50,348 nucleotides of DNA. Source: a virus. The DNA lies in IMG/VR virus record IMGVR_UViG_3300009161_000066, positions 1 to 50,348 of that record. One strand, given 5' to 3'. Below the pieces are notes generated by a model that did not search any database, had not been told where the DNA came from, and worked only from the letters and a program-made list of their open reading frames with translations. This document shows, piece by piece, positions 13,068 through 28,714 of this stretch. A program made the translations under genes and the position numbers. Each line of letters opens with the position of its first letter. The stretch's first letter is position 1.

Positions 13068-13788
13068 TGAAGGCCTATTAGCAGGCGACTTAAAAATGTT
13101 AGTGGATAATATTTTTGAAGTTGACAGCTATTCTAGTAAAATGGGCGAAGATAAAGACATTGTAGTTTTGGCATTCACTGTAGGTAGTCAAAAACCTGCA
13201 GATGATCTAGTTGAGTTTATGGAAAGCGGTTATGATTTTGTTCTAGACGCAGATGCAAGCCCTGGAGAACTTAGTGATGGCAAGTATAAAGTGTTTGTTG
13301 AAATTGAACGTAATCGTCGTATCAGTGAACAAATTTTAGAATTACTAAATGGAGTACGCCAACTTGCAGAAGTTGAAAACTTTAAATTTAGATATCATAA
13401 GAGCTTTCACAGTATCGATGCCGACGAATCAAATCTCAACGAAACAATTCCAAAAACTAAAGATGACTATGAGATCACTATACAAGAAAATGTAATGAAT
13501 AACTTTGGTAACTTCTTTGGACGTAGCTATTTAGAAAGTGTTAGTGTAGATCACGAGGACATAGTATTCCAGAAGAAATTTTCAGGCCCGTTGCGTTTGC
13601 GTATTAAAGATTTTGGCCGTACTGAAGAAATATACAACAATATCCAAGGCCCTATTATGTTAGAAGGTAGTGCAATGAGTGAAATACTGTACTACACAAA
13701 GTATGTTGGTAACTATAATATTACTAAAATTGGTTCATCTTTTGTATTTGAGAATGACGGATATGCAGTGGTGTTGGAGAAAGTTTAA
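13054..13788 (+). CDS. Conserved phage protein of unknown function
   Basis: 244 residues. Start set at the ATG at 13054 because GGAGGAG at 13041-13047 is spaced seven bases away; the in-frame ATG at 13048 is too close. The sequence is acidic and mixed alpha/beta, with segments VVLAFTVGSQKPADDLVEF and KVFVEIERNRRISEQILELL. No catalytic motif is evident. It overlaps the upstream gene by 14 bases and is coupled to the spanin gene by ATG/TAATG. Confidence 0.45.
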   Translation: MHKFNEGLLAGDLKMLVDNIFEVDSYSSKMGEDKDIVVLAFTVGSQKPADDLVEFMESGYDFVLDADASPGELSDGKYKVFVEIERNRRISEQILELLNGVRQLAEVENFKFRYHKSFHSIDADESNLNETIPKTKDDYEITIQENVMNNFGNFFGRSYLESVSVDHEDIVFQKKFSGPLRLRIKDFGRTEEIYNNIQGPIMLEGSAMSEILYYTKYVGNYNITKIGSSFVFENDGYAVVLEKV

Positions 13789-14408
13789 TGAGCCAATTTG
13801 GATGGATGTTAAGTCTTATCCCAGATAGCCTTTTTGTTTGGATTTACTATGCATTTACAATAGTAGGTGTTAGTCTGTACATTGCCAGTAAACTTGTAAC
13901 GTGGATTCCCATGATGGGGCAGTACAAATTACCCGCAGAACTAGTGGGCGTAGTACTGTTAGTAATAGGATCATACTTGTTTGGCGGACATAATGTGCAA
14001 TCTGCATGGCTTGCTCGAGTAGCAGAATTAGAAGCTAAAGTTAAGATTGCAGAAGAAAAATCGCAACAGGTTAACACAGTTATAGAAACAAAGGTAGTTA
14101 CAAAGGTTAAAGTCATTAAGGAAAATGTCTATGTCAACAGAGAAATTATCAAAGAAGTTGCAGGTAAGCAATTGGATGCTAGTTGTAGCTTGCCTAAGTC
14201 TACTGTCAGCTTGCACGACAGCGCCAGTCGTAATGAAGTGGCCGGACGTGCCGCCGCAACTGATGGAACCCCCAGTGAAGTTAAAGCCAGTCAACTCCTA
14301 GACAGAGTTGTTGAAAACTACGGAAGCTGTCATGAAAATGCGGCTAAACTAGAAGCATGGCAAGAATGGTACCGAGAGCAGAAAAAAATCTTCGAATCAG
14401 TTAAATAG
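13788..14408 (+). CDS. Rz: Inner-membrane spanin (Rz-like)
   Basis: 206 residues. Two hydrophobic segments lie near the N-terminus (about residues 8-32 and 50-66). A coiled-coil region (VAELEAKVKIAEEKSQQVN, then KVVTKVKVIKENVYVNREI) follows, with a periplasmic C-terminal region (LLDRVVENYGSCHENAAKLEAWQEW). This layout fits an i-spanin, although two membrane segments instead of one is unusual. The decisive support is a complete Rz1-type lipoprotein nested in the +1 frame at 14131-14301. Spanin pairs fuse the inner and outer membranes at the last step of lysis in Gram-negative hosts. Confidence 0.75.
   Translation: MSQFGWMLSLIPDSLFVWIYYAFTIVGVSLYIASKLVTWIPMMGQYKLPAELVGVVLLVIGSYLFGGHNVQSAWLARVAELEAKVKIAEEKSQQVNTVIETKVVTKVKVIKENVYVNREIIKEVAGKQLDASCSLPKSTVSLHDSASRNEVAGRAAATDGTPSEVKASQLLDRVVENYGSCHENAAKLEAWQEWYREQKKIFESVK
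14131..14301 (+). CDS. Rz1: Outer-membrane spanin lipoprotein Rz1, nested in Rz
   Basis: A 56-residue frame lying wholly inside the Rz gene, shifted by +1. It has a basic N-terminus (EKLSKK), a hydrophobic stretch (WMLVVACLSL) and a lipobox LSAC with Cys28 as the lipidation site. A proline-rich mature peptide follows (PDVPPQLMEPPVKLKPVNS). That is the classic nested Rz1 architecture of lambda-like spanins. AAGGA at 14118-14122 is eight bases before the ATG at 14131; the in-frame ATG at 14125 is too close. It partners with Rz across the periplasm. Confidence 0.85.
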   Translation: MSTEKLSKKLQVSNWMLVVACLSLLSACTTAPVVMKWPDVPPQLMEPPVKLKPVNS

Positions 14409-15145: not shown

Positions 15146-15703
15146 ATGGCAGAAGAAGTTAAAGTTTTAAGCGCAAGCGAAACAAAAAAAGAAGATTGGA
15201 TGAACAGTAAATGGCGTCCAATGATGGGGTGGATGTATATGGTAGTCTGTATGATGGACATGGTAGTATTTCCAATTCTTTGGAGTCTATTGCAGACCTT
15301 CACTCATAGTACAATTACACAATGGACACCACTAACACTGCAAGGTGCAGGACTATTTCATATTGCCATGGGTGCAGTACTAGGTATTGCGGCATTTGGT
15401 CGCACACAGGAAAAATTAGGCGGAGCAAACAATGGCGGAATACAAACACCAGGAGCAGGATTTGCGAGCGGGACTCCAGCATTTGGCCAACCGCAATCAG
15501 GAGGCTTCGGCAACTCCGGTGGTTTTAATTCACCAGCACCAACAGGCTTTGGTAGTAATTCAGGATTTGGAGCACCAGTGTCTGCAGCTCCAAGTTGGGG
15601 GACAACACCTGTTGCAGCCGGTGGGTTTGGTGCAATGCCGGTCGTGAGTAGGCCAGCGCCTAGTAGGCCGCCATTGGATGAAAAATTTCCACCTTTAGAT
15701 TGA
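15146..15703 (+). CDS. 3-TM holin-like protein with Gly/Phe-rich tail
   Basis: 185 residues. The first 95 resemble the 3-TM holin family (gene-transfer-agent type). KWRPMMGWMYMVVCMMD and a VVFPILWSLLQ helix are followed by PLTLQGAGLFHIAMGAVLGI and the short FGRTQEK end. Residues 95-185 are a low-complexity Gly/Phe/Asn/Pro tail (FGQPQSGGFGNSGGFN and similar) ending PPLDEKFPPLD. That tail is long for a holin and would be cytoplasmic or periplasmic depending on topology. A holin would time lysis by opening the inner membrane. The endolysin gene is at 21697. Confidence 0.6.
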   Translation: MAEEVKVLSASETKKEDWMNSKWRPMMGWMYMVVCMMDMVVFPILWSLLQTFTHSTITQWTPLTLQGAGLFHIAMGAVLGIAAFGRTQEKLGGANNGGIQTPGAGFASGTPAFGQPQSGGFGNSGGFNSPAPTGFGSNSGFGAPVSAAPSWGTTPVAAGGFGAMPVVSRPAPSRPPLDEKFPPLD

Positions 15704-19562: not shown

Positions 19563-19928
19563 ATGAAAATATTTGAACTGTTTAACCCCAACATGAAACG
19601 AGAAGAGTTCGATCTGCGCGACGATCTAATCTTTTTTATGCGTAATGACCCACAATTCTATCGTAAAGAACTACTGCCGTTTCAACAGAAATTTACACGC
19701 CATTGTGATTCGGGCCGTAGCGTGAGTTCTAAGGCGTTTGAACCCATTGTAAAACGAGCGTTTGATCGTTACAAAGATATGTTCCCCGTAGAAGGAATGG
19801 AAGATACTCTAACAAAAAGAGACGTACAAGAGATATGTGAAAAGTTGCAAGGTGAAGAAACTAATAATTATCACGAAGAAAAGAAAAACACTGCCGAGAA
19901 AAAAGATGATACTAAGAGAGCTATTTGA
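19563..19928 (+). CDS. Conserved phage protein, possible internal/scaffold-associated
   Basis: 121 residues. It starts MKIFELFNPN, a short M-K-I-x-E-L leader shared with other genes in this cluster. The core (DDLIFFMRNDPQFYRKELLP, FEPIVKRAFDRYKDMFPVEG) is conserved in T4-like marine phages. A Glu/Lys-rich disordered tail follows. No enzymatic motif. The 3' end overlaps the nucleotidyltransferase gene by 23 bases. Confidence 0.45.
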   Translation: MKIFELFNPNMKREEFDLRDDLIFFMRNDPQFYRKELLPFQQKFTRHCDSGRSVSSKAFEPIVKRAFDRYKDMFPVEGMEDTLTKRDVQEICEKLQGEETNNYHEEKKNTAEKKDDTKRAI

Positions 19929-21480
19929 GTCTAAAAGCAAATCGGTAGGAATTATATTTGGCCGATTTAACCCTCCTCATATGGGACATATGAAAGCATG
20001 GGAAATGGCCAGTGAAAATTCAGCCTGGTATGTTGGTACTAATAAAAGTACACAGGGTCCCAAGGATCCACTACCATTTGACATTAAGGTCAAAGCAATG
20101 GACGCTGTATATCCTGCAATCAAAGGACATATTGTTGCTGAACAAAGTTGGCTAACGTTGGCTAGTAAGGTATACGAAAAACACGGCAACATTGTATTAA
20201 ATGTCTATACTGACGAGGCATGGGTTACTAAGGCACTTGTACAATACAATGGTAAAGAAGGTGCCCACGGATATTACGAGTTTGGCACTATCCAACAACA
20301 AGACACACCCCGCCTAAGCTCAGCAACTGCTCTACGTAATGCAGTAGCAGCAGATGATAGAGATGCGTTTGGACAAGCAGCAGGCGTTGATCCCAATACT
20401 CTCGTTGCAGGACATCCGTTCTTTGATGTGGTAAAACATTATCTTATGCCACATGCTGAAAAGGCTGCGGCTAAAGTTGTTAAGAAGAAAGTTAAAGAAC
20501 CAGTGGGGTTAGATGAAGGCCCTTCATTACCTAGCACACTAAAAAGCATTGCAACAAATGGCGAGCCCATAACACAGTTATATGGTAAACTAAAAGCTAT
20601 GGCTAAACGTTGGGTAGACAACAATGGAAGCCTAAAAGGGTTTCATCGTAATGCTGCTGGACAAAGTGCTCAATGGTTTAACAATTTTTACTTTAATAAA
20701 TTGCAAAATGATTTGTATGCCTTGGTTAAACAAGCACCTAAATATGCTCCTCCACTAATTGCATTTTTAAAAGATGCCAGTGAAGATCGCGAACGTCATA
20801 TTAACTTTACAGAAATCAGCGGATCGTTACCTCCTATACTATTCCAAATAGGTAAACGTATGGGTGACGAAAGTCTAGCACGTTTTGCACATAGCTGGAA
20901 GGCACGTAAAGATGAGTATGACTCGTATCTATCACAATTAGAATCAGAAGCTGACAGTGATGATGAATTTGATATGCCTGTTGCAAAGCCAGAAAAGAGC
21001 AAAATGCCCGGGCAACAAAATGCGCAAGCTGAACAAATTGTCAACAGCGTATTATCAAAACTTCCTAAGAATATAGCAGGTGAAATACGTAACGCCATTG
21101 CCCGTGCACCTAATAAAATACAAGCACTACACCAAGAATTAACTAAGCGTAAAATACAAGGTGTGGCGGAAGGTGAAAGCAATGCTATAGATACTGTAGC
21201 TAAACGTTTAACTGATCCTAAAGATGGAATGACTGCTAAACTTAGAGCAGCCGGTGACAAACGCCGTGAAGATAAACTAAAAGGCAGAAATATTTCCAGG
21301 CGTGATACTACTAGCAAGGACGAATGGGGCGACTTAAAACAAGAAAATGCTTGGGACAGACTACAGCGTGAACGAGCATTAGAGTCAGCAGGTGTTGGTA
21401 TTATAACAAAACAGAATTCAACTGTTGACGTAAATAAAAACACCCCAAAGAAGAATCTAAAGGCATTTAGATTAATATAA
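19906..21480 (+). CDS. Nucleotidyltransferase with long phage-specific C-terminus
   Basis: 524 residues from the ATG at 19906 (MILRELFES). Residues 14-30 (GIIFGRFNPPHMGHMKA) carry the HxGH-type nucleotide-binding motif of cytidylyl/adenylyltransferases, and RLSSATALRNAV around residue 140 is the matching ISSTxxR motif. Beyond about residue 190 the protein is unlike known enzymes: a globular region (GSLKGFHRNAAGQSAQWF) is followed by charged linkers. The linkers include LDEG (about residue 203) and QGVAEGE (about residue 420), which fit the (I/L/V)-x-E cleavage pattern of T4-type prohead proteases. Substrate is unknown. Possibly packaged in the head and processed (inference). Confidence 0.6.
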   Translation: MILRELFESKSKSVGIIFGRFNPPHMGHMKAWEMASENSAWYVGTNKSTQGPKDPLPFDIKVKAMDAVYPAIKGHIVAEQSWLTLASKVYEKHGNIVLNVYTDEAWVTKALVQYNGKEGAHGYYEFGTIQQQDTPRLSSATALRNAVAADDRDAFGQAAGVDPNTLVAGHPFFDVVKHYLMPHAEKAAAKVVKKKVKEPVGLDEGPSLPSTLKSIATNGEPITQLYGKLKAMAKRWVDNNGSLKGFHRNAAGQSAQWFNNFYFNKLQNDLYALVKQAPKYAPPLIAFLKDASEDRERHINFTEISGSLPPILFQIGKRMGDESLARFAHSWKARKDEYDSYLSQLESEADSDDEFDMPVAKPEKSKMPGQQNAQAEQIVNSVLSKLPKNIAGEIRNAIARAPNKIQALHQELTKRKIQGVAEGESNAIDTVAKRLTDPKDGMTAKLRAAGDKRREDKLKGRNISRRDTTSKDEWGDLKQENAWDRLQRERALESAGVGIITKQNSTVDVNKNTPKKNLKAFRLI

Positions 21481-21695
21481 TGGATGAGCTTGCCCAACTT
21501 AAACGCCTAGCTGGAGTTAACAGTTATAAAGGCCTACAGCCATATGACATCAATGAAGGCAGTAATATAAGCGTTACTGGCAATGAAAAAGGCAAGTTGA
21601 TGAAGCAGCACAATATTAAATCAGGAACACCCGAGTGGTTTAAGTTATGGTTTAGTCTACCTTACATGACTGGCGAAAAGCCCATTGGAGATTGA
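21480..21695 (+). CDS. Small conserved phage protein
   Basis: 71 residues, starting at the ATG overlapping the previous stop (TAATG). The MDELAQLKRLAGV opening is a frequent N-terminus in T4-like marine phage proteins of the head/core region. DINEGSN in the middle fits the I-x-E-G processing-like motif seen in its neighbours. C-terminus FKLWFSLPYMTGEKPIGD. Function unknown. Confidence 0.45.
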   Translation: MDELAQLKRLAGVNSYKGLQPYDINEGSNISVTGNEKGKLMKQHNIKSGTPEWFKLWFSLPYMTGEKPIGD

Positions 21696-21696
21696 T

Positions 21697-22329
21697 ATGA
21701 GTTTTGAGTTTGATTTTACTGTAGAAAAGTTACATAACTGTGTACACAAAAATAAAGAAATCGAATTATGGTATAACGCCATGGCCGAATACTTACCTAA
21801 GTTTGAAATTACTACACCTGCTCGTGTAGCAGGATTTGTTGCACAGTGCCAACATGAAAGCGCAGACTTTACTGCACTACAGGAAAATTTAAACTACGGT
21901 GCTAAAGGTCTAATGAGTATTTTTAAGAAATACTATACAGACGAAGCATTAGCAAAAAGACATGAACGTAAACCAGAATTAATTGCTAATCGTGTATATA
22001 GTAGTCGCATGGGCAACGGTGATGACGCAAGTGGTGACGGTTGGAAGTTCCGGGGGCGTGGCATTTTACAAATTACGGGTCGCAGTAATTATACCCAATG
22101 CAGTCGTGATTTGTTCGGTGATGATACATTAGCAAATGATCCAGATTTATTACGCACACCAGAATACGCAGTTCTAAGTGCTTGCTGGTTTTGGCACAAG
22201 AATGGATTAAATGCTATTTGCGACAAGGGCGACATTGTATTGCTAAGTAAAAAAATCAACGGTGGTACTATTGGATTAGAAGATCGCATCTCTCACTGGA
22301 ATATTGCGTTAGATCAATTTGAAGGCTAA
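21697..22329 (+). CDS. Endolysin, GH19 chitinase/lysozyme-like
   Basis: 210 residues from the ATG at 21697 (GGAG six bases upstream; an in-frame TTG at 21685 is unlikely). CQHESADFTALQENLNYGA contains the catalytic Glu in the HES context. GWKFRGRGILQITGRSNY is the substrate-site signature of GH19 endolysins. The WFWHKNGLNAICDKGD helix and VLLSKKINGGTIG region complete the fold. There is no signal peptide, so a holin must release it. It would cleave the glycan backbone of peptidoglycan. It is separated from the holin and spanin genes by about 6 kb. Confidence 0.85.
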   Translation: MSFEFDFTVEKLHNCVHKNKEIELWYNAMAEYLPKFEITTPARVAGFVAQCQHESADFTALQENLNYGAKGLMSIFKKYYTDEALAKRHERKPELIANRVYSSRMGNGDDASGDGWKFRGRGILQITGRSNYTQCSRDLFGDDTLANDPDLLRTPEYAVLSACWFWHKNGLNAICDKGDIVLLSKKINGGTIGLEDRISHWNIALDQFEG

Positions 22330-22330
22330 T

Positions 22331-23098
22331 ATGTTTTTAAGAGAATTAATTGTTGAAGATGCTATGATGGGCAAGATTGCAGACTCGGGCAAAATTATTC
22401 GCATCTTAAAGAAAGCACACACTGTGCCATTCAGTGATGAAAAAAACTGGTTGCTGGTAGATATGGATCCGGCCAAAGGCAACAAAGGGCTGGGTATCAA
22501 ATGGATTCCAGCCGACACAAGATTTGAATGGGTAAGGCCTTATAGAGACTCAGTGGATGAAAACTTTGCTGACGGAAAGAACCCACAGGACAAAGGCGAT
22601 GCCAAACGTCACGGGGTAAACACCAAAGGCAATGTAAGTAGCCTACGCAAGGTTGCCAAGCAAGGTGGTCGTAAAGGACAACTAGCACATTGGATGGCTA
22701 ACATGAAAGCCGGTAAGAAGAAGTCACTAAATGAAGCTGTTATACATCCAGGTATAATGGATGCTCTAGAAGACTTTTTGCCATTTGTAATGAAGATGTT
22801 AAAGTTAGACAAACTACCTAGGATTGGCATTCATAAAACTATAGAGACAGGTGATCAACCTAGCTTTGGTGGTTATGATATGGAAAACAACTCAATACAG
22901 TTAGCTCTTAAAGATCGTCATCCTGCAGATATACTTAGAACACTGGCTCATGAACTGGTACACTATAAACAAAATACCACACACGAGCTCGATGATCAAA
23001 GTGGGTCAACTGGTAGTCCAGAAGAAAATGAAGCTAACTCTAAAGCAGGGGTTATCATGCGCCAGTTTAACAAACGTTTCCCGCAATACTTAGAGTAA
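22331..23098 (+). CDS. Zincin-like metallopeptidase with leader-like N-terminus
   Basis: 255 residues from the ATG at 22331, one base after the endolysin stop. The N-terminus is MFLRELIVEDAMMG, similar to other leader-like starts in this cluster. Residues 75-130 form a basic block (GRKGQLAHWMANMKAGKKK) known from T4-like virion proteins. SLNEAVIHPG at about 136 fits an L-x-E-A cleavage motif. The C-terminal domain has HELVHYKQ, an HExxH zinc site, followed by EENEAN, which may give the third ligand. So a peptidase may be freed from a leader and linker by processing. Substrate is unknown. Confidence 0.6.
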   Translation: MFLRELIVEDAMMGKIADSGKIIRILKKAHTVPFSDEKNWLLVDMDPAKGNKGLGIKWIPADTRFEWVRPYRDSVDENFADGKNPQDKGDAKRHGVNTKGNVSSLRKVAKQGGRKGQLAHWMANMKAGKKKSLNEAVIHPGIMDALEDFLPFVMKMLKLDKLPRIGIHKTIETGDQPSFGGYDMENNSIQLALKDRHPADILRTLAHELVHYKQNTTHELDDQSGSTGSPEENEANSKAGVIMRQFNKRFPQYLE

Positions 23099-23102
23099 TA
23101 CT

Positions 23103-23288
23103 ATGAAAATAAGAGAAATACTAGTTAAAGAAGATGCTACACCAGGTGGTACTAGCGCAGGTAATGTTGCAGTAGGTGCAGTATACAAGAACAAGAAAGG
23201 AAAGTCTGCTAAAAACTCCAATGGTACAATAAAGAATGCTCTTGATATGAAGAACAATTTACTAACTGGTGGCAGCTTAAAACGATAA
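23103..23288 (+). CDS. Small basic protein with leader-like N-terminus
   Basis: 61 residues. It opens MKIREILVKEDATPGG, the clearest example of the shared leader with a V-K-E-D processing-like site. The remainder is Gly/Ala/Lys/Asn rich (NKKGKSAKNSNGTIKNAL) and basic. It could be an internal-head peptide. Function unknown. Confidence 0.45.
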   Translation: MKIREILVKEDATPGGTSAGNVAVGAVYKNKKGKSAKNSNGTIKNALDMKNNLLTGGSLKR

Positions 23289-23291
23289 ATA
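23284..23291 (+). promoter_or_regulatory. Late-type promoter motif GATAAATA
   Basis: An eight-base motif like the T4 late promoter, 25 bases before the ATG at 23316, overlapping the end of the preceding small gene. Confidence 0.5.
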
Positions 23292-23315
23292 TTATGAAAT
23301 TGGAGAACTCTCAAA

Positions 23316-24710
23316 ATGCAAGATAACTTTCACCGTCCGGACGATCACGAAGCAAAAATGGCTCGTGCCGATCTATTCAAATGCGCCCAATACAGCTTTA
23401 AGCTATTCAAAATGATCCGCGAAGATCAAGAGCTAGAGGGATGGGTTCAAGCTAAGATTACCAAAGCTGCCGATTACATTGCGTCTGTGTATCACTACAT
23501 GGAATACGAAATGAAGATTAGCGAATACGGTAGTGCCATTGAAAACAGCGATATGTATTCAGAAAGTATTCGTCGTGCTTTTACCCAAAAATTAACAGAA
23601 GCTAAGAAGCAAGCTGTTAAAGCTAAAGATGCAATGAAGAAGAAAGAAAAAGATCTCGACGAAGGTTGGGAAGACATGATTAAAGCTAATAAAGAAAAAG
23701 CAGATGGCAAAGGTGATATGAAAACTGGCGAGAAAAAGAAAAGTTCTTCGCATGGTGTTATTACTAAAACTGAAAAAGGTGTTGTACACAAAGCCGGTAA
23801 CAAGGGCTATGGCAACAACTGGGATGGTGAAACTCCAGCTGCTCCATCGAAAGCTGCAAAATCAGCATCAGAAAAGAAATCAGACAAAGAAAAAGACATC
23901 AAGTTGCCACCATGGAAAGGTAATGTTACCAAGCATAGCAGTAATAAAGGCGCAGAGAAAGATGACGGCACTGGAGATATCAAAGAAGGTAGTATTCAAG
24001 GTGGAGTATGGACCGCTGATGCACCTAAGAAAGGTGCTCCCAATGTTCCAGTTCCAAGTCCAAACGAAGGACCAACTTCAAATGCTATGAAGCCATTACC
24101 GCCAGGAACAACTCCAGAAAAAGCCAAGCTAGATCCACGTTACAAAACAGATCCAGCATTTAAAAAAGAAGTTGATACTGCATCACAAATTACTTTTAAA
24201 GAAGGCAAAAAGCCAGACTTTTTAGACATGGACAAAGATGGCGACAAGAAAGAGCCAATGAAGAAAGCAGTTGCTGATAAAAAAGCAGGTCCTAAGAAAG
24301 GCGTTAATCCTTTTGCCAAAGTAAAAGAAACAGCAATAAGTGGTGCACCACAAAAATCTGGAATTCCAACGACAGCAACTACTACAGTACCAGGAATGAG
24401 AGCCACTCAACAAGATTTAAAGAAGGCAGGAGCAAGTGCAGCATTAGGTGAAGGAAAATGCAACCACACTGCTAAAGGTAAGGCATGCCCAGTACACGGT
24501 CTAAAAGAATGTGGCGGGACGTATGAAGGATCGGATAGTAATCCACAACATAGTCATCAATTTGATGTTACTATGAAACATGCCAAGAACCCAACAGTAC
24601 AACAGCGTATGGCAGCACACGACATTAAGCCGGGCATATCTGGATATAAAGATCGTATTGATCTCTTGAAAGACTTAGAGCGTACAGGCAAATTAAAAGG
24701 TAATAATTAA
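23316..24710 (+). CDS. Large low-complexity internal/scaffold-like protein
   Basis: 464 residues with ribosome site ttggagaactctc. A folded N-terminal domain (about 1-95; FHRPDDHEAKMARADLF, MIREDQELEGWVQAKI) is followed by long Lys/Glu/Gly/Pro-rich linkers. These contain x-x-E-G sites: LDEGWED, DIKEGSI, FKEGKKP and LGEGKCN. LDPRYKTDPAFKKEVD near residues 271-286 is shared with the protein at 26447. The C-terminus has a Cys/His cluster (KCNHTAKGKACPVHGLKEC) that may bind metal, then a compact end domain. Composition and motif spacing suggest a processed head-internal protein; this is inference. Confidence 0.5.
   Translation: MQDNFHRPDDHEAKMARADLFKCAQYSFKLFKMIREDQELEGWVQAKITKAADYIASVYHYMEYEMKISEYGSAIENSDMYSESIRRAFTQKLTEAKKQAVKAKDAMKKKEKDLDEGWEDMIKANKEKADGKGDMKTGEKKKSSSHGVITKTEKGVVHKAGNKGYGNNWDGETPAAPSKAAKSASEKKSDKEKDIKLPPWKGNVTKHSSNKGAEKDDGTGDIKEGSIQGGVWTADAPKKGAPNVPVPSPNEGPTSNAMKPLPPGTTPEKAKLDPRYKTDPAFKKEVDTASQITFKEGKKPDFLDMDKDGDKKEPMKKAVADKKAGPKKGVNPFAKVKETAISGAPQKSGIPTTATTTVPGMRATQQDLKKAGASAALGEGKCNHTAKGKACPVHGLKECGGTYEGSDSNPQHSHQFDVTMKHAKNPTVQQRMAAHDIKPGISGYKDRIDLLKDLERTGKLKGNN
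24132..24176 (+). repeat. 45-bp direct repeat, copy 1
   Basis: Coding repeat for DPRYKTDPAFKKEVD. It matches 27485-27529 at 44 of 45 bases although the surrounding genes differ. Suggests module exchange between the two genes. Confidence 0.9.
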
Positions 24711-24713
24711 GTT

Positions 24714-25880
24714 ATGGATATGAAGAAAATACTTCAAGCAATAGATAATGCTAGCACTGAAGTATCTTCTTCAGAAATGCAGCGGCTACGCAATATAGTT
24801 GAAGGTAAAGGTCCATTAAACAGATTAACTGCTGCCGAATCAATGACTGTTGATCATTATTCTGCACTGCGCACAACAATTACTAGTCCAGTACTTAATG
24901 TACAAGAAGATGCTAGACCCAGTATGATTGGCAAGTATTTCAAAACAGTTGAAGAAGAGTTACAAGAATCAGCACAACAAGGAAATCTTCGGACTCGGCA
25001 ATTAGCAGAACGTGTAACTACACGACTAAACGAATTAAGCACTGCAACTCTTGCAAGCTATAAAAAGAAAGCAGGTGCAGATGCTAGCAAGGCCGATAAA
25101 GAAGGTGACTTTAAACGCGGCGATAAACGTTTTAGTGGCATTGTCAAAGCAACTAAAAAGCAATTTGCTAACGACGAGCAAGGTGTGGCGGAAGGCAATG
25201 ATACAAATGAATTGACAGCGTCTGTTACGGTAGACGGCGAGTTTAAAGAGTTTGATTTAACACCATTTATAGCAAAAAACAATTGGGTAGGAACTCCACA
25301 GCAAGTTATCAAACTGGCTGAAAAATGGTTGAGTGATTTTTTAAGGAAAAAAGGATTAGCTTACTCTAATTTAAAAATCACTTACAAAGGTATGACTTTG
25401 AACGCCAATCAAATTGGCGATGTAGGTTCTTCAGAATTTGAATCAGTAGCAGAAGGCGAGCGTACAATGAGCCGTGCTGCCAAAGGCTATGAGAAGTATG
25501 GCAAGGCAGGTATGACAGCATTAGCCAAAGCAGGCCGAGAAGGTGCCGGTGAGAAAAAGTTAGATGCTATTCGTGATCGTCATGACAACTACAATGAAGA
25601 CAGTGACCCATGCTGGGACAGTCATAAGATGGTGGGCACAAAGAAGAAAGGCGGCAAGCCTGTTCCGAACTGTGTTCCTAAAGAATCAGTTAAAGAAGAT
25701 ACTAAACGATGTATGCAATGTGGTATGACTAACTGTAGTTGTAAGCCAGGAAAATGTAAATGCAAACCTATTGCAGGGTGGATTCCTAACAAAGGTTTTA
25801 AGAAAGCAGTAGATGAAGCTGCTAATGCTGCACAACAAGCAGCAATCGCTATTGCAAAAAAGAAAGCAGGTAAGAAATAA
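24714..25880 (+). CDS. Modular low-complexity protein with Cys-rich C-terminus
   Basis: 388 residues. An N-terminal helical domain (MDMKKILQAIDNAS, LRNIVEGKGPLNRL) is followed by TLASYKKKAGADASKADKEG, a block common in T4-like virion proteins. A short beta domain comes next, then a DPCWDSHKMVGTKKKGGKP / VPNCVP block. Possible processing sites: IVEG (about 29), QGVAEGN (about 155) and SVAEGE (about 243). The C-terminal 55 residues have a metallothionein-like cluster: CMQC, CSC, then CKCK. No enzyme motif. It overlaps the dps start (TAATG). Probably a member of the internal-protein set. Confidence 0.5.
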   Translation: MDMKKILQAIDNASTEVSSSEMQRLRNIVEGKGPLNRLTAAESMTVDHYSALRTTITSPVLNVQEDARPSMIGKYFKTVEEELQESAQQGNLRTRQLAERVTTRLNELSTATLASYKKKAGADASKADKEGDFKRGDKRFSGIVKATKKQFANDEQGVAEGNDTNELTASVTVDGEFKEFDLTPFIAKNNWVGTPQQVIKLAEKWLSDFLRKKGLAYSNLKITYKGMTLNANQIGDVGSSEFESVAEGERTMSRAAKGYEKYGKAGMTALAKAGREGAGEKKLDAIRDRHDNYNEDSDPCWDSHKMVGTKKKGGKPVPNCVPKESVKEDTKRCMQCGMTNCSCKPGKCKCKPIAGWIPNKGFKKAVDEAANAAQQAAIAIAKKKAGKK

Positions 25881-26317
25881 TGGACGAGCTTAAAAAAGCA
25901 TTGAAAATTGCATTTGCCAGCGAATATGCATTTGCTATCAAAACACAAAACTTTCACTGGAATGTAGAAGGTCCGTTGTTTCCACAACTACACATGCTTT
26001 TTGAAACTATTTATATTGAAGTATACGGTGCTATTGATCCATTTGCTGAGAATATTCGCAAGCTGGGTTCATACACACCCGCTAGTTATTCACGTTTATC
26101 AATGCTAACACAAGTTGAAGATGAATTAAACATGCTGGAAGATAGAGCTATGATTGCGGAACTACTGCAAGATAGCGATAAAATGGTCAAACTGTTAAAG
26201 ATGGTGTTTGATCTGTCTGAATCTGCAGGCGAACACGGATTAAGTGACTTTATAGCAGGCCGCATGGATGCACATCGTAAGCACAGCTGGCAGCTGAGGG
26301 CTACATCAAAACAATAA
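25880..26317 (+). CDS. dps: Dps-like ferritin-family protein
   Basis: 145 residues forming a four-helix ferritin-like protein. The Dps ferroxidase pattern is complete: H26 and W27 in NFHWNVEG, H38, D53 and E57, with the same spacing as the His-His-Asp-Glu set in bacterial Dps. Dps proteins oxidise iron(II), protect DNA and can form 12-mer shells. The gene lies within a cluster of apparent internal-head proteins. Whether it acts in the cell or is packaged is unknown. It overlaps the upstream stop and is followed by a structured gap. Confidence 0.8.
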   Translation: MDELKKALKIAFASEYAFAIKTQNFHWNVEGPLFPQLHMLFETIYIEVYGAIDPFAENIRKLGSYTPASYSRLSMLTQVEDELNMLEDRAMIAELLQDSDKMVKLLKMVFDLSESAGEHGLSDFIAGRMDAHRKHSWQLRATSKQ

Positions 26318-26320
26318 GAA

Positions 26321-26396
26321 CACACCTTAGGACCGGTAATTCGTTACCGTAAGTGTGGGGAGGCTGCTGCCCTAGACGGCCCAATTCGCTACTGGG
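26321..26396 (+). ncRNA. Structured intergenic RNA element
   Basis: The 129-base gap after dps holds a two-tier hairpin: outer CACACcTTA/TAAGTGTG (26321-26329 with 26350-26357, one bulged C) and inner CGGTAA/TTACCG (26334-26349) closed by a TTCG tetraloop. A second, weaker hairpin uses CCCA/TGGG (26380-26383 with 26393-26396). No tRNA signature, open frame or T-run was seen. It may be a small RNA, an mRNA processing or stability element, or a 3'-UTR structure. Confidence 0.4.
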
Positions 26397-26414
26397 AATC
26401 TTAAAGTGAGCACT

Positions 26415-26422
26415 GATAAATA
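26415..26422 (+). promoter_or_regulatory. Late-type promoter motif GATAAATA
   Basis: T4-late-like motif 25 bases before the ATG at 26447, the same distance as at 23284. It directly follows the structured RNA element. Confidence 0.55.
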
Positions 26423-26446
26423 TATTACAGAATTTGGAGAATAAAG

Positions 26447-28714
26447 ATGGATTTACGAGCACTAATGCAACAGCTAGAGACAATTAATACTACGCAAACT
26501 CTAACTGAGTCTGTAGAAGAACGTGTAGTTATTACTGAGTCAGTAGCAACATCTAATCCAAGAATTGAAGAACTTACTTTTAAGAGTTCAATTGCACGTG
26601 GCCTAGCTAACGAATTTGGTTATGAATTAAATGAAGAAGGGCGCGGCGGCGGAGAGGCTCAATCTGACGCAGACTATTTTAAGCAACAGGCTCAAGGTCA
26701 AAAGAACCTTAATTCAGTCAAGGGATTTTTTGGTGGAGCACCGGCGGCGGCACCTACAGCAGGAGCTCCAGCTGCGGCAGCACCCGATAATAGAAATTTT
26801 TTGCAGAAAGGCTTTGATGGCATTGCAGACTTTCACAAAAAAAATAGCGAAAAATTTGCTGCAAAACAAGCTGCTGATGCAGCCGCAAACAGTCCAGAAG
26901 GTATGGCAGCGGCCAAGGCCAACCTAACACCAAGTCAACTAACGTGGTTGGGCAATGCTCAACCAAGTCCAGAAATTTTACAAAGAATACCAGCACCAAC
27001 GGCCAAGGAAAAAGCAGATGCAGCGGCCGCGGCACCAAGCGGTCCTGGACTAAAACCGCCGAAATACGGTGCATTTGGTACTGAGACTAGACCGCTCGAT
27101 GGCACCGATGATCGTCGAGAAGGTGGACAAGGACTCAAAATACCAAATGGAGCGATGGCACCAGCAACATCAGTTGCGGCAGCTCAGGCAGCTTTGGCAC
27201 CAGCAGCGGCACCAGCAGCGGCACCAGCAGCGGCACCAAGTGCGGCCCCAGGGGGAGTTACCCGTGGTGGTGGCGCGGCTGCAGATACAGCGGAAATCAA
27301 TCGTGTTAAACAACTAGCAAATCCGAATTCAGCGGCTGCTGATGCTGAAAGAGATGGAGTTCCGGTAGCGCCAGCGGCAGCGGCACCAGCAAATTCAGAT
27401 GCAGCTAATGCTGAAAGAGATGGTACTCCGGTGGCACCAGCTGCCGATCCGGCAAATGGACAAACTCCAGAACAAGCCATGCTGGATCCACGTTACAAAA
27501 CAGATCCAGCATTTAAAAAGGAAGTTGATGCCGCTGCCGCAATCGGAACAACACCACCAACACCAGCGGCACCGGCTACAGGTACGGAAGAAAAAAAGAT
27601 TGCTAGATTTAAAGAACTATTAGATAAAGCTAAAGCTACTGATACCGCAACAAAAGAAAGTATTAGTTACTTTTTAAACAAATTGCGTTTTATTGAATCA
27701 CGTCAATTGAACGAAGCATTAAGCGCGGCAGAACAAAAAGAAATGGATGGGTTGGCTGCTGAGTTAGGAGGGCAGGGTTCAGAAAATAATCCTGCAATAA
27801 CAGCACTGATCAATAACTACAATTCGTCAAAGTCAAAACCAGCAGCAGCGCAAGCAGCGGCACCAGCAGCGGCATCTGCACCAGCAGCGGCATCTGCACC
27901 AGCAGCGGCATCTGCAGCGGCGCCAGCAGCAGGGGGAACGCCTGCGAATGCGGCAGCAATGGCAAATGCAAACTGGTCCTACGTAGAGAAAGGTTCGGAT
28001 GAAGCTTTTGCATTAGACAACGGCTTTGGATACGATGTAGCCAAGTGGAGAGCAGAAGGCTCGCCTGGGAAACCAAAACCGGCAGCTTCAGGGCCGCCGG
28101 CCGGGTCAAGCACAACGGATGACCCAGTATCCATTTCCGCGCAGGATTCATTAAATAAACAGATGGCTAAAAAAGACGACCCAGCCAAGGTCTCACCAGG
28201 GGCCGATGGCGCAGTAGGTCAAGATTTGGCTAAAATGGGTGTCACCAAGCAAAACAGACTTGATCAAGCATTTGTGGATAAGACACTGGGTCCAGGCAAA
28301 TACAAAGCAGGAAGTAAGGAATCTAACTTAGCTTTACAAGCACACTTTAAAAAGCAAGGCAGCGCCGACACGGGAATAGCAGCAGCACCAGCGGCGGCGC
28401 TGACGCGAGGCGCATTTGCCATGCCACAGAAAATTGCGCCTGGTATAGGGATAGCGGCTGGAAATAAACCACAAGGTACTCCTGGCCAACGACCTGCAAT
28501 GTACAAGGATCCAAGAATAGTAAGCGATGACCCGCCAGTGGCTGCGCCCGCTCCAGCAGCATCTGCACCAAAACCAGCAGCTTTACCGGGAACGCCAACT
28601 CGAGCAACTGGCATTGTAAATCGTAGAACACCAGCGCCACCCACACAGGCTGAAAGTATAGTTACTCAAGACGATGCTATACTATCAATGATTCGAAATA
28701 TTCGAGTAAGTTAA
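26447..28714 (+). CDS. Large Ala/Pro-rich modular protein
   Basis: 755 residues with ribosome site ttggaga. The helical N-terminus (DLRALMQQLETI) is followed by ITESVATSNPRIEEL and then LNEEGRGGGEA. Long Ala/Pro tracts, encoded by tandem 12-base and 18-base repeats, separate small folded pieces: KKNSEKFAAKQAADAAAN, ESISYFLNKLRFIESRQLNEA and QNRLDQAFVDKTLGPGKY. It carries the shared DPRYKTDPAFKKEVD module and a duplicated AERDG(V/T)PVAPA unit. LNEA at about residue 425 fits a processing site. The C-terminal AILSMIRNIRVS is a defined end peptide. It ends at a strong terminator. No enzyme motif; an internal-head or scaffold role is inferred. Confidence 0.5.
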   Translation: MDLRALMQQLETINTTQTLTESVEERVVITESVATSNPRIEELTFKSSIARGLANEFGYELNEEGRGGGEAQSDADYFKQQAQGQKNLNSVKGFFGGAPAAAPTAGAPAAAAPDNRNFLQKGFDGIADFHKKNSEKFAAKQAADAAANSPEGMAAAKANLTPSQLTWLGNAQPSPEILQRIPAPTAKEKADAAAAAPSGPGLKPPKYGAFGTETRPLDGTDDRREGGQGLKIPNGAMAPATSVAAAQAALAPAAAPAAAPAAAPSAAPGGVTRGGGAAADTAEINRVKQLANPNSAAADAERDGVPVAPAAAAPANSDAANAERDGTPVAPAADPANGQTPEQAMLDPRYKTDPAFKKEVDAAAAIGTTPPTPAAPATGTEEKKIARFKELLDKAKATDTATKESISYFLNKLRFIESRQLNEALSAAEQKEMDGLAAELGGQGSENNPAITALINNYNSSKSKPAAAQAAAPAAASAPAAASAPAAASAAAPAAGGTPANAAAMANANWSYVEKGSDEAFALDNGFGYDVAKWRAEGSPGKPKPAASGPPAGSSTTDDPVSISAQDSLNKQMAKKDDPAKVSPGADGAVGQDLAKMGVTKQNRLDQAFVDKTLGPGKYKAGSKESNLALQAHFKKQGSADTGIAAAPAAALTRGAFAMPQKIAPGIGIAAGNKPQGTPGQRPAMYKDPRIVSDDPPVAAPAPAASAPKPAALPGTPTRATGIVNRRTPAPPTQAESIVTQDDAILSMIRNIRVS
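27197..27238 (+). repeat. 12-bp tandem repeat, 3.5 copies
   Basis: In-frame repeats of gcaccagcagcg encoding Ala-Pro-Ala-Ala within the 755-residue protein. Copy number could change by slippage without frameshift. Confidence 0.9.
27326..27440 (+). repeat. Imperfect in-frame duplication
   Basis: Two copies about 49 bases long starting with aattcag (27326 and 27392), 66 bases apart, encoding variants of NSAAADAERDGVPVAPA. Confidence 0.75.
27485..27529 (+). repeat. 45-bp direct repeat, copy 2
   Basis: Second copy of the DPRYKTDPAFKKEVD-coding module found at 24132-24176, with one base difference. Confidence 0.9.
27860..27913 (+). repeat. 18-bp tandem repeat, 3 copies
   Basis: Three perfect copies of gcaccagcagcggcatct, encoding Ala-Pro-Ala-Ala-Ala-Ser units in a linker. 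Confidence 0.9.

Follow-up and report, generated by a model that had tools for sequence, protein, structure and literature searches.

The window analysed here, a stretch of 50,348 bases, is, judging by its genes, a fragment of a large T4-like phage of bacteria. Along its entire length, its DNA polymerase is related to the enzymes of T4-like and jumbo phages (e.g., Sinorhizobium phage Phosso, Atu_ph07 and 121Q), and further genes encode a ClpA-type protein, a clamp loader, a CobS-like ATPase and queuosine-type functions. The interval 19563-28714 holds ten genes, all on one strand (Table 1), and belongs to a gene order that runs from ClpA through 18825, 19563, the nucleotidyltransferase (NTase), 21480, the lysin, the zincin protein, 23103, 23316, 24714, Dps and 26447 to the DNA polymerase further on. 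This order is largely kept among the 14 related loci compared, Dps sometimes adjoining the NTase; one of the 14 (L039) sits in a 383-kb record, G003 (DNA polymerase identity, 84%). About 6 kb ahead of the endolysin gene, which itself stands inside the putative cargo block, are a spanin-like gene (13788-14408) and a holin-like gene (15146-15703).

Table 1. Genes and shorter features of the interval in window coordinates (a slash marks a predicted cut)
Start	End	Strand	Feature
19563	19928	+	121-aa protein, leader-like start MKIFELFNP; conserved in 29/80 loci
19906	21480	+	HIGH-type nucleotidyltransferase (NMNAT/cytidylyltransferase-like), leader MILRELFE/S, modular tail; phrog_3041, E 3e-15
19906	19929	+	Predicted capsid-targeting leader of the nucleotidyltransferase; predicted cut after LFE
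21157	21174	+	Seam word encoding QGVAEG, first copy, in nucleotidyltransferase gene 19906
21480	21695	+	71-aa protein starting MDELAQLKRLAGV; INE/G site; conserved family
21697	22329	+	GH19-type endolysin, without leader; phrog_181, E 2e-75
22331	23098	+	Leader MFLRELIVE/D, FADGK basic module, LNE/A site, then zincin (HExxH) domain; phrog_87 metalloprotease
22331	22357	+	Predicted capsid-targeting leader of the zincin protein
23103	23288	+	61-aa basic protein; behind leader MKIREILVKE comes DATPGGTSAGNVAVG, similar to the capsid-protein junction
23316	24710	+	Low-complexity modular protein: ITKAA, LDPRY, PDFLD and CNHT modules; [ILV]xE sites
24714	25880	+	Low-complexity modular protein: MDMKK, LSTATL, TMSRA, CWDSH and CMQCG modules; seven [ILV]xE sites
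25179	25196	+	Seam word encoding QGVAEG, second copy, in gene 24714
25880	26317	+	Dps/ferritin-like protein, without leader; PF00210, E 1e-19
26447	28714	+	755-aa Ala/Pro-rich protein; LTE/S and ITE/S near start

Four proteins of the block open with short leaders: MKIFELF (19563), MILRELFES (19906), MFLRELIVEDA (22331) and MKIREILVKEDA (23103). The original prediction had read such leaders, together with repeated sites ending in glutamate, as the marks of processed internal head proteins, and every leader and site string that it quoted is present in the window, with LDEG in the NTase and in 23316-24710, INEG in 21480, IKEG in 23316, LNEA in the zincin protein and in 26447, and SVAEG and IVEG both in 24714-25880. 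The T4 record gives MKTYQEFIAE/A for IPII and IPIII, MKTFKEF...ITE/A for IPI, LIE/T in gp21 and LTE65/A in gp23; in IPIII, residues 4 and 7 chiefly govern targeting, and residues 8 and 10 govern processing (PMC9026906). The leaders of relatives match the IPII/IPIII capsid-targeting sequence in register, as M[KR]-x-x-[ED]-[FIL]-[IL]-x-E. A pattern modelled on the T4 tag fitted 4.6% of 3811 non-redundant true N-termini from relatives (175/3811) and 0.45% of the internal methionine positions that served as control (80/17602), an enrichment of about tenfold. R or K occupies position 2 in 83% of 177 nine-residue leaders and E or D occupies P5 in 85%, neither having been required by the search. The zincin protein is the sole one in the window whose N-terminus fits the strict pattern. 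The window tags end in the predicted cuts LFE/S, IVE/D and VKE/D, with V at P3 in the last, a position that is mostly I or L in the leaders of relatives. MKIFELFNP of 19563, a protein with no clean [ILV]xE cut site within its sequence, resembles the start MKLFEMFNP of a small gene in the gp20-gp21 interval of a relative (L397), and the MILRELF-type form is found on many different HIGH NTases. The 23316 protein has no leader of its own.

Tagged genes can also stand in arrays: seven lie close together in L318 (2310-11173), one of them encoding an isochorismatase-like protein (VVDVQPEY), and downstream of this group lies a protein in which GVAEG occurs three times. Two further tagged proteins, starting HYTN... 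(L226, 4629-5519; L277, 3635-4525), are at a guess of ADP-ribosyltransferase type, reminiscent of T4 Alt.

The leaders, QGVAEG and the sites in two genes exceed chance. The loose motif (I/L/V/F/M)xE(G/A/S/D) is clearly above shuffled expectation only in 23316 (6 against 1.8) and 24714 (7 against 1.8), and is at about chance level in most other genes, within and outside the block. Such near-shuffled counts would suit a reading in which glutamate-rich low-complexity linkers throw up motifs and no system exists. That reading, which we regard as highly improbable, is disfavoured by the tenfold N-terminal enrichment, by the depletion of sites inside modules and by the fixed QGVAEG word, the last two described below.

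The analogy with T4 finds support in the relatives. G001, G002 and G003 encode gp21 and gp23, G003 with a window-like gene order. A gp21-like protease, for which a search had been proposed, is thus present in G003 and also in 10 of the 20 large QGVAEG-bearing contigs; the PF03420 (gp21) profile had no match in the 50-kb window or in eight short close relatives, all of them incomplete fragments, so that absence there is uninformative. The capsid proteins (gp23) of the relatives share a junction, LxE/[SN]A[ST]AGxTSAGN[IV]AT, near the T4 cut region. Its LxE is kept in every gp23 copy among those listed, and alignment to T4 leaves the exact bond unfixed. A gp23-type junction also follows the leader in many non-capsid proteins. 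Window protein 23103 reads MKIREILVKED-ATPGGTSAGNVAVG, that is, a leader and then the sequence of the predicted gp23 cut junction, and its counterpart in a relative reads MKIREILIKE/TATAGATSAGNVSVG. Leader proteins, 23103 included, thus appear to share the predicted cut rule of the relatives' major capsid protein.

The prohead-core genes of relatives open with the same leaders as the block proteins; in G003, a small core gene beside gp20 starts with MILRELF, the leader of the window NTase. The interval between gp20 and gp21, in which T4 has gp67 and gp68, holds in another relative, G018, a modular protein bearing QGVAEG twice. The presence of leaders and of a modular protein in this core cluster, and the degradation and expulsion of T4 core proteins, would fit a model in which the modular proteins are assembly core, like T4 gp67, gp68 and gp22, helping to build the prohead and being cut by gp21 to peptides that mostly leave the head. 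We find this model rather improbable, as the tagged proteins include enzyme domains without obvious assembly role, and homologous modules and an NMNAT are present in mature purified virions (see below).

The gp22 scaffold of the relatives (L096, L110, L120, L396, L398, L400 and L401) ends in ...I[KR][KR]LAGL. The window 21480 family begins (21480-21556) with MDELAQLKRLAGV, whose RLAG motif is common to these gp22 C-termini, and some low-complexity proteins end in LRKLAGL (L044, L050); LAGL/RLAG is possibly a scaffold-docking motif.

The low-complexity proteins 23316 and 24714 are basic. Proteins of this kind match relatives in pieces only and have a mosaic build of short modules, the [ILV]xE sites lying between one module and the next; seventeen module seeds recur in many orders and combinations. 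Glutamates in a site context make up 16.2% outside modules and 5.7% inside (odds ratio 0.31, p=2e-18, a p-value that is optimistic because the sequences are related). Module and breakpoint counts throughout were drawn from related sequences, and their statistics are optimistic in the same way. The NTase and zincin domains are placed right after leaders or sites. In several phages the zincin domain comes directly behind the leader, and elsewhere, as in the window, behind a module and LNE/A or LTE/A. An AlphaFold model of the window zincin protein places its three predicted cut sites within the low-confidence stretches 1-14, 63-82 and 129-136; the peptidase part bears a weak resemblance to minigluzincins (E 0.03). 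Other tagged or QGVAEG-bearing proteins carry GNAT, ParB-like, cytidine deaminase, HIGH and Pol-beta nucleotidyltransferase, M78, GH19 and DnaJ domains. A tblastn search of cultured phages returned nothing for the window 24714 protein, the FADGK module or the 23103 protein.

The cargo reading proposed for the unit is therefore kept for the NTase, the zincin protein and the low-complexity proteins, with their T4-like leaders and gp21-type (L/I/V)-x-E sites. It is not supported for Dps, suggested as a possible further cargo: none of 14 Dps homologues among those listed has a leader, and they start MDELKKA. The endolysin is probably not cargo either, its homologues starting MSFEFDF, without a leader.

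QGVAEG behaves differently from the other sites. Its 17-base pattern, present twice in the window, had no match in 100 shuffles. Our scans of IMG/VR, tolerant of synonymous codons, covered KQGVAEG and QQGVAEG, so that occurrences number at least those among the matches listed, and the word proved far more abundant than chance would allow: a backwards control pattern had no match in 20 records, each of which contains the real word, at 1-4 copies per record and on a single strand in each. Its codons are nearly fixed in unrelated contexts (Val GTG 87%, background 23%; Ala GCG 91%, background 12%; Gly GGT 96%, background 45%; preceding Lys AAG 91%, background 32%). By contrast, leaders of the form MRAxEF[IVL]xE have codon use close to background. 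Conservation ends at the 20-base word, and the flanking bases are not conserved. Unbiased k-mer enrichment in G001-G003 was dominated by glycine-rich and other repeats and did not raise QGVAEG, indicating that its frequency differs between lineages, from rare to common. In G002 and G003 (L100-L131), GGEP(L) is itself recurrent, in 6 and 13 proteins, respectively.

Homology stops at the word. Among protein pairs sharing one side of it, 195 were one-sided and 42 two-sided, as against 0 and 87, and 2 and 122, at control positions 40 residues away; 60 residues upstream of the word lies another homology boundary. Across the linker, identity in one-sided pairs falls from about 0.8 to about 0.1. The loss of homology and the fixed codons together mark the word as a place of module exchange at the DNA level. 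The exchange of flanks may have been an active process, or the word may merely record selected events, and the data are compatible with both.

Of 223 distinct contexts of the exact 17-base word, 221 have it in the QGVAEG frame, the remaining two being in bacterial chromosomes; all other frames of the word are open. We rejected a pure DNA signal (Chi-like or pac-like) on the ground that only one frame of the word is used. A bacterial source was also rejected: bacterial genomes gave three exact matches, two of them without a QGVAEG reading and the third (L426) reading QGVAEG. The single frame points to an additional role at the protein level, and the seam is predicted to encode a protease site, VAE/G. 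The word could still be a recombination or mobile DNA word whose likeness to a protease site is incidental, since its codons are fixed at the DNA level, unlike those of the leaders, and homology breaks at it; this seems unlikely to us given that one frame is used though the others are open, and that the word sits between modules, where the codon-variable [ILV]xE sites also sit.

A bolder proposal, which we put forward tentatively and with somewhat less than even confidence, is that exchange is an active process at the 20-base word AGCAAGGTGTGGCGGAAGGC, where payload modules would be swapped between genes and phages, possibly with the help of a dedicated endonuclease or annealing recombinase. 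The word would be kept in frame because it also encodes a capsid-protease site, so that any swapped-in piece would automatically be packaged and cut free. If true, this would be a plug-in cargo system combining a DNA seam with a protein cut code. A homing-endonuclease-like gene (L404, 14103-15506) adjoins gp23 in G018 and is a possible lead for the exchange mechanism.

Repeated coding words of other kinds are known. Rickettsia palindromic elements are in-frame dispersed coding repeats, in which a repeated DNA word lies in frame inside unrelated genes. The sequences coding for palindromic amphipathic repeats are in-frame dispersed coding repeats as well (PMC2996958). The seam word resembles both in being a dispersed repeat conserved at the DNA level and lying in frame in unrelated genes. 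It differs from these repeats in being only about 20 bases long and not palindromic, in forming an exchange seam at the borders of modules, and in encoding a plausible protease site; nor do we see insertion into otherwise continuous genes, the flanks being exchanged.

Evidence from virions comes from published work on homologues, in phages other than that of the window. Mass spectrometry of CsCl-purified virions of cyanophage S-SCSM1 detected an NMNAT, ORF91 (PMC9602691). This homologue of the window NTase starts MKSFLQFLKE/A (predicted cut), a ten-residue leader that follows T4 in having an aromatic residue at 4, F at 7, L at 8 and E at 10, and the same leader form is kept in P-SSM2, ACG-2014f, P-TIM68, S-T4 and S-SKS1. 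Only two S-SCSM1 proteins match the module seeds, and both are virion proteins detected by mass spectrometry: ORF92 has the PDFLD module found in window 23316 (1e-14), and ORF29 has ACYRK (2e-26), KWVRF (3e-13) and CWDSH (5e-13), the last also found in window 24714. In S-CREM2, a cytidylyltransferase is present in the virions together with the proteins encoded by the two genes that follow (PMC10665884). The authors of both studies allow for carry-over (PMC9602691, PMC10665884). Over all S-SCSM1 proteins, leaders were found in 4/44 against 7/236 (p=0.08), a result that is only suggestive because most virion proteins are tail and baseplate proteins.

The S-SCSM1 data concern whole virions, in which head and tail are not told apart and cut positions are not mapped. 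They would suit proteins in or on the virion that belong to the tail or lie outside the head, the leaders being some other kind of signal. That location is very unlikely in our view, considering the in-register match of the leader to the T4 head tag, and that core genes and the gp23 junction share it.

Taken together, these observations suggest that the block probably encodes capsid-internal proteins of a large T4-like phage, with docking by tag, cutting by a gp21-family protease, modular cargo and exchange at seams; for the tagged proteins, the likeliest role is that of T4-type cargo inside the capsid, in an expanded, modular version. During prohead assembly, the N-terminal tag of about 8-11 residues would dock the protein on the scaffolding core, like the IPII/IPIII tag of T4, and a gp21-family protease would then cut after (I/L/V)-x-E, removing the tag. 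In the modular proteins, cutting would release enzyme domains (nucleotidyltransferase, zincin) and small modules, most of them basic, in the head beside the DNA. The virion would carry the freed proteins, and their entry into the cell alongside the DNA is probable by analogy with T4 IPI and Alt. Module borders often bear the 20-base word encoding (K/Q/E)QGVAEG, where modules have been exchanged in frame, so that a swapped-in piece would bring a VAE/G cut site at its border.

The block and its relatives share with T4 IPI, IPII, IPIII and Alt (PMC9026906, PMC9958956) an N-terminal tag of about ten residues in the same register, an (L/I)-x-E cut rule (predicted here), a gp21-family protease (here in relatives) and diverse cargo behind a common tag. 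They differ from the T4 proteins in having far more tagged genes, sometimes in arrays, NTase and zincin enzyme cargo, modular proteins with many internal sites, and a DNA-level exchange seam. The NMNAT-like virion proteins of S-SCSM1, S-CREM2 and S-CBWM1 (PMC9602691, PMC10665884) belong to a homologous enzyme class found in purified virions, with neighbouring modular virion proteins; the tag, the cut site and the module code are not described in those papers, and the window lies outside the cyanophage group, with an NTase whose modular tail carries the seam. The ejection proteins of phiKZ and SPN3US (PMC9026906, PMC10052503) are likewise a large head-internal set cut after Glu by a prohead protease, but with an S/A-x-E rule in phiKZ and with no shuffled modules or shared DNA seam reported. 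In a full-text literature collection we found neither the string QGVAEG nor a description of tag arrays, modules or seam. What appears to be new here is QGVAEG as a nearly invariant DNA word and as a putative module-exchange seam encoding a predicted protease site.

If true, this would make the sequence code of T4-like head cargo readable, and payloads could be predicted for phages known only from metagenomes, among them nucleotidyltransferases, proteases, acetyltransferases, deaminases, ParB-like proteins and many basic modules. The code would also help to explain the recurrent NMNAT-like enzymes in cyanophage virions, and the seam would be a rare candidate for one short DNA word that serves both the exchange of gene parts and the processing of the protein.
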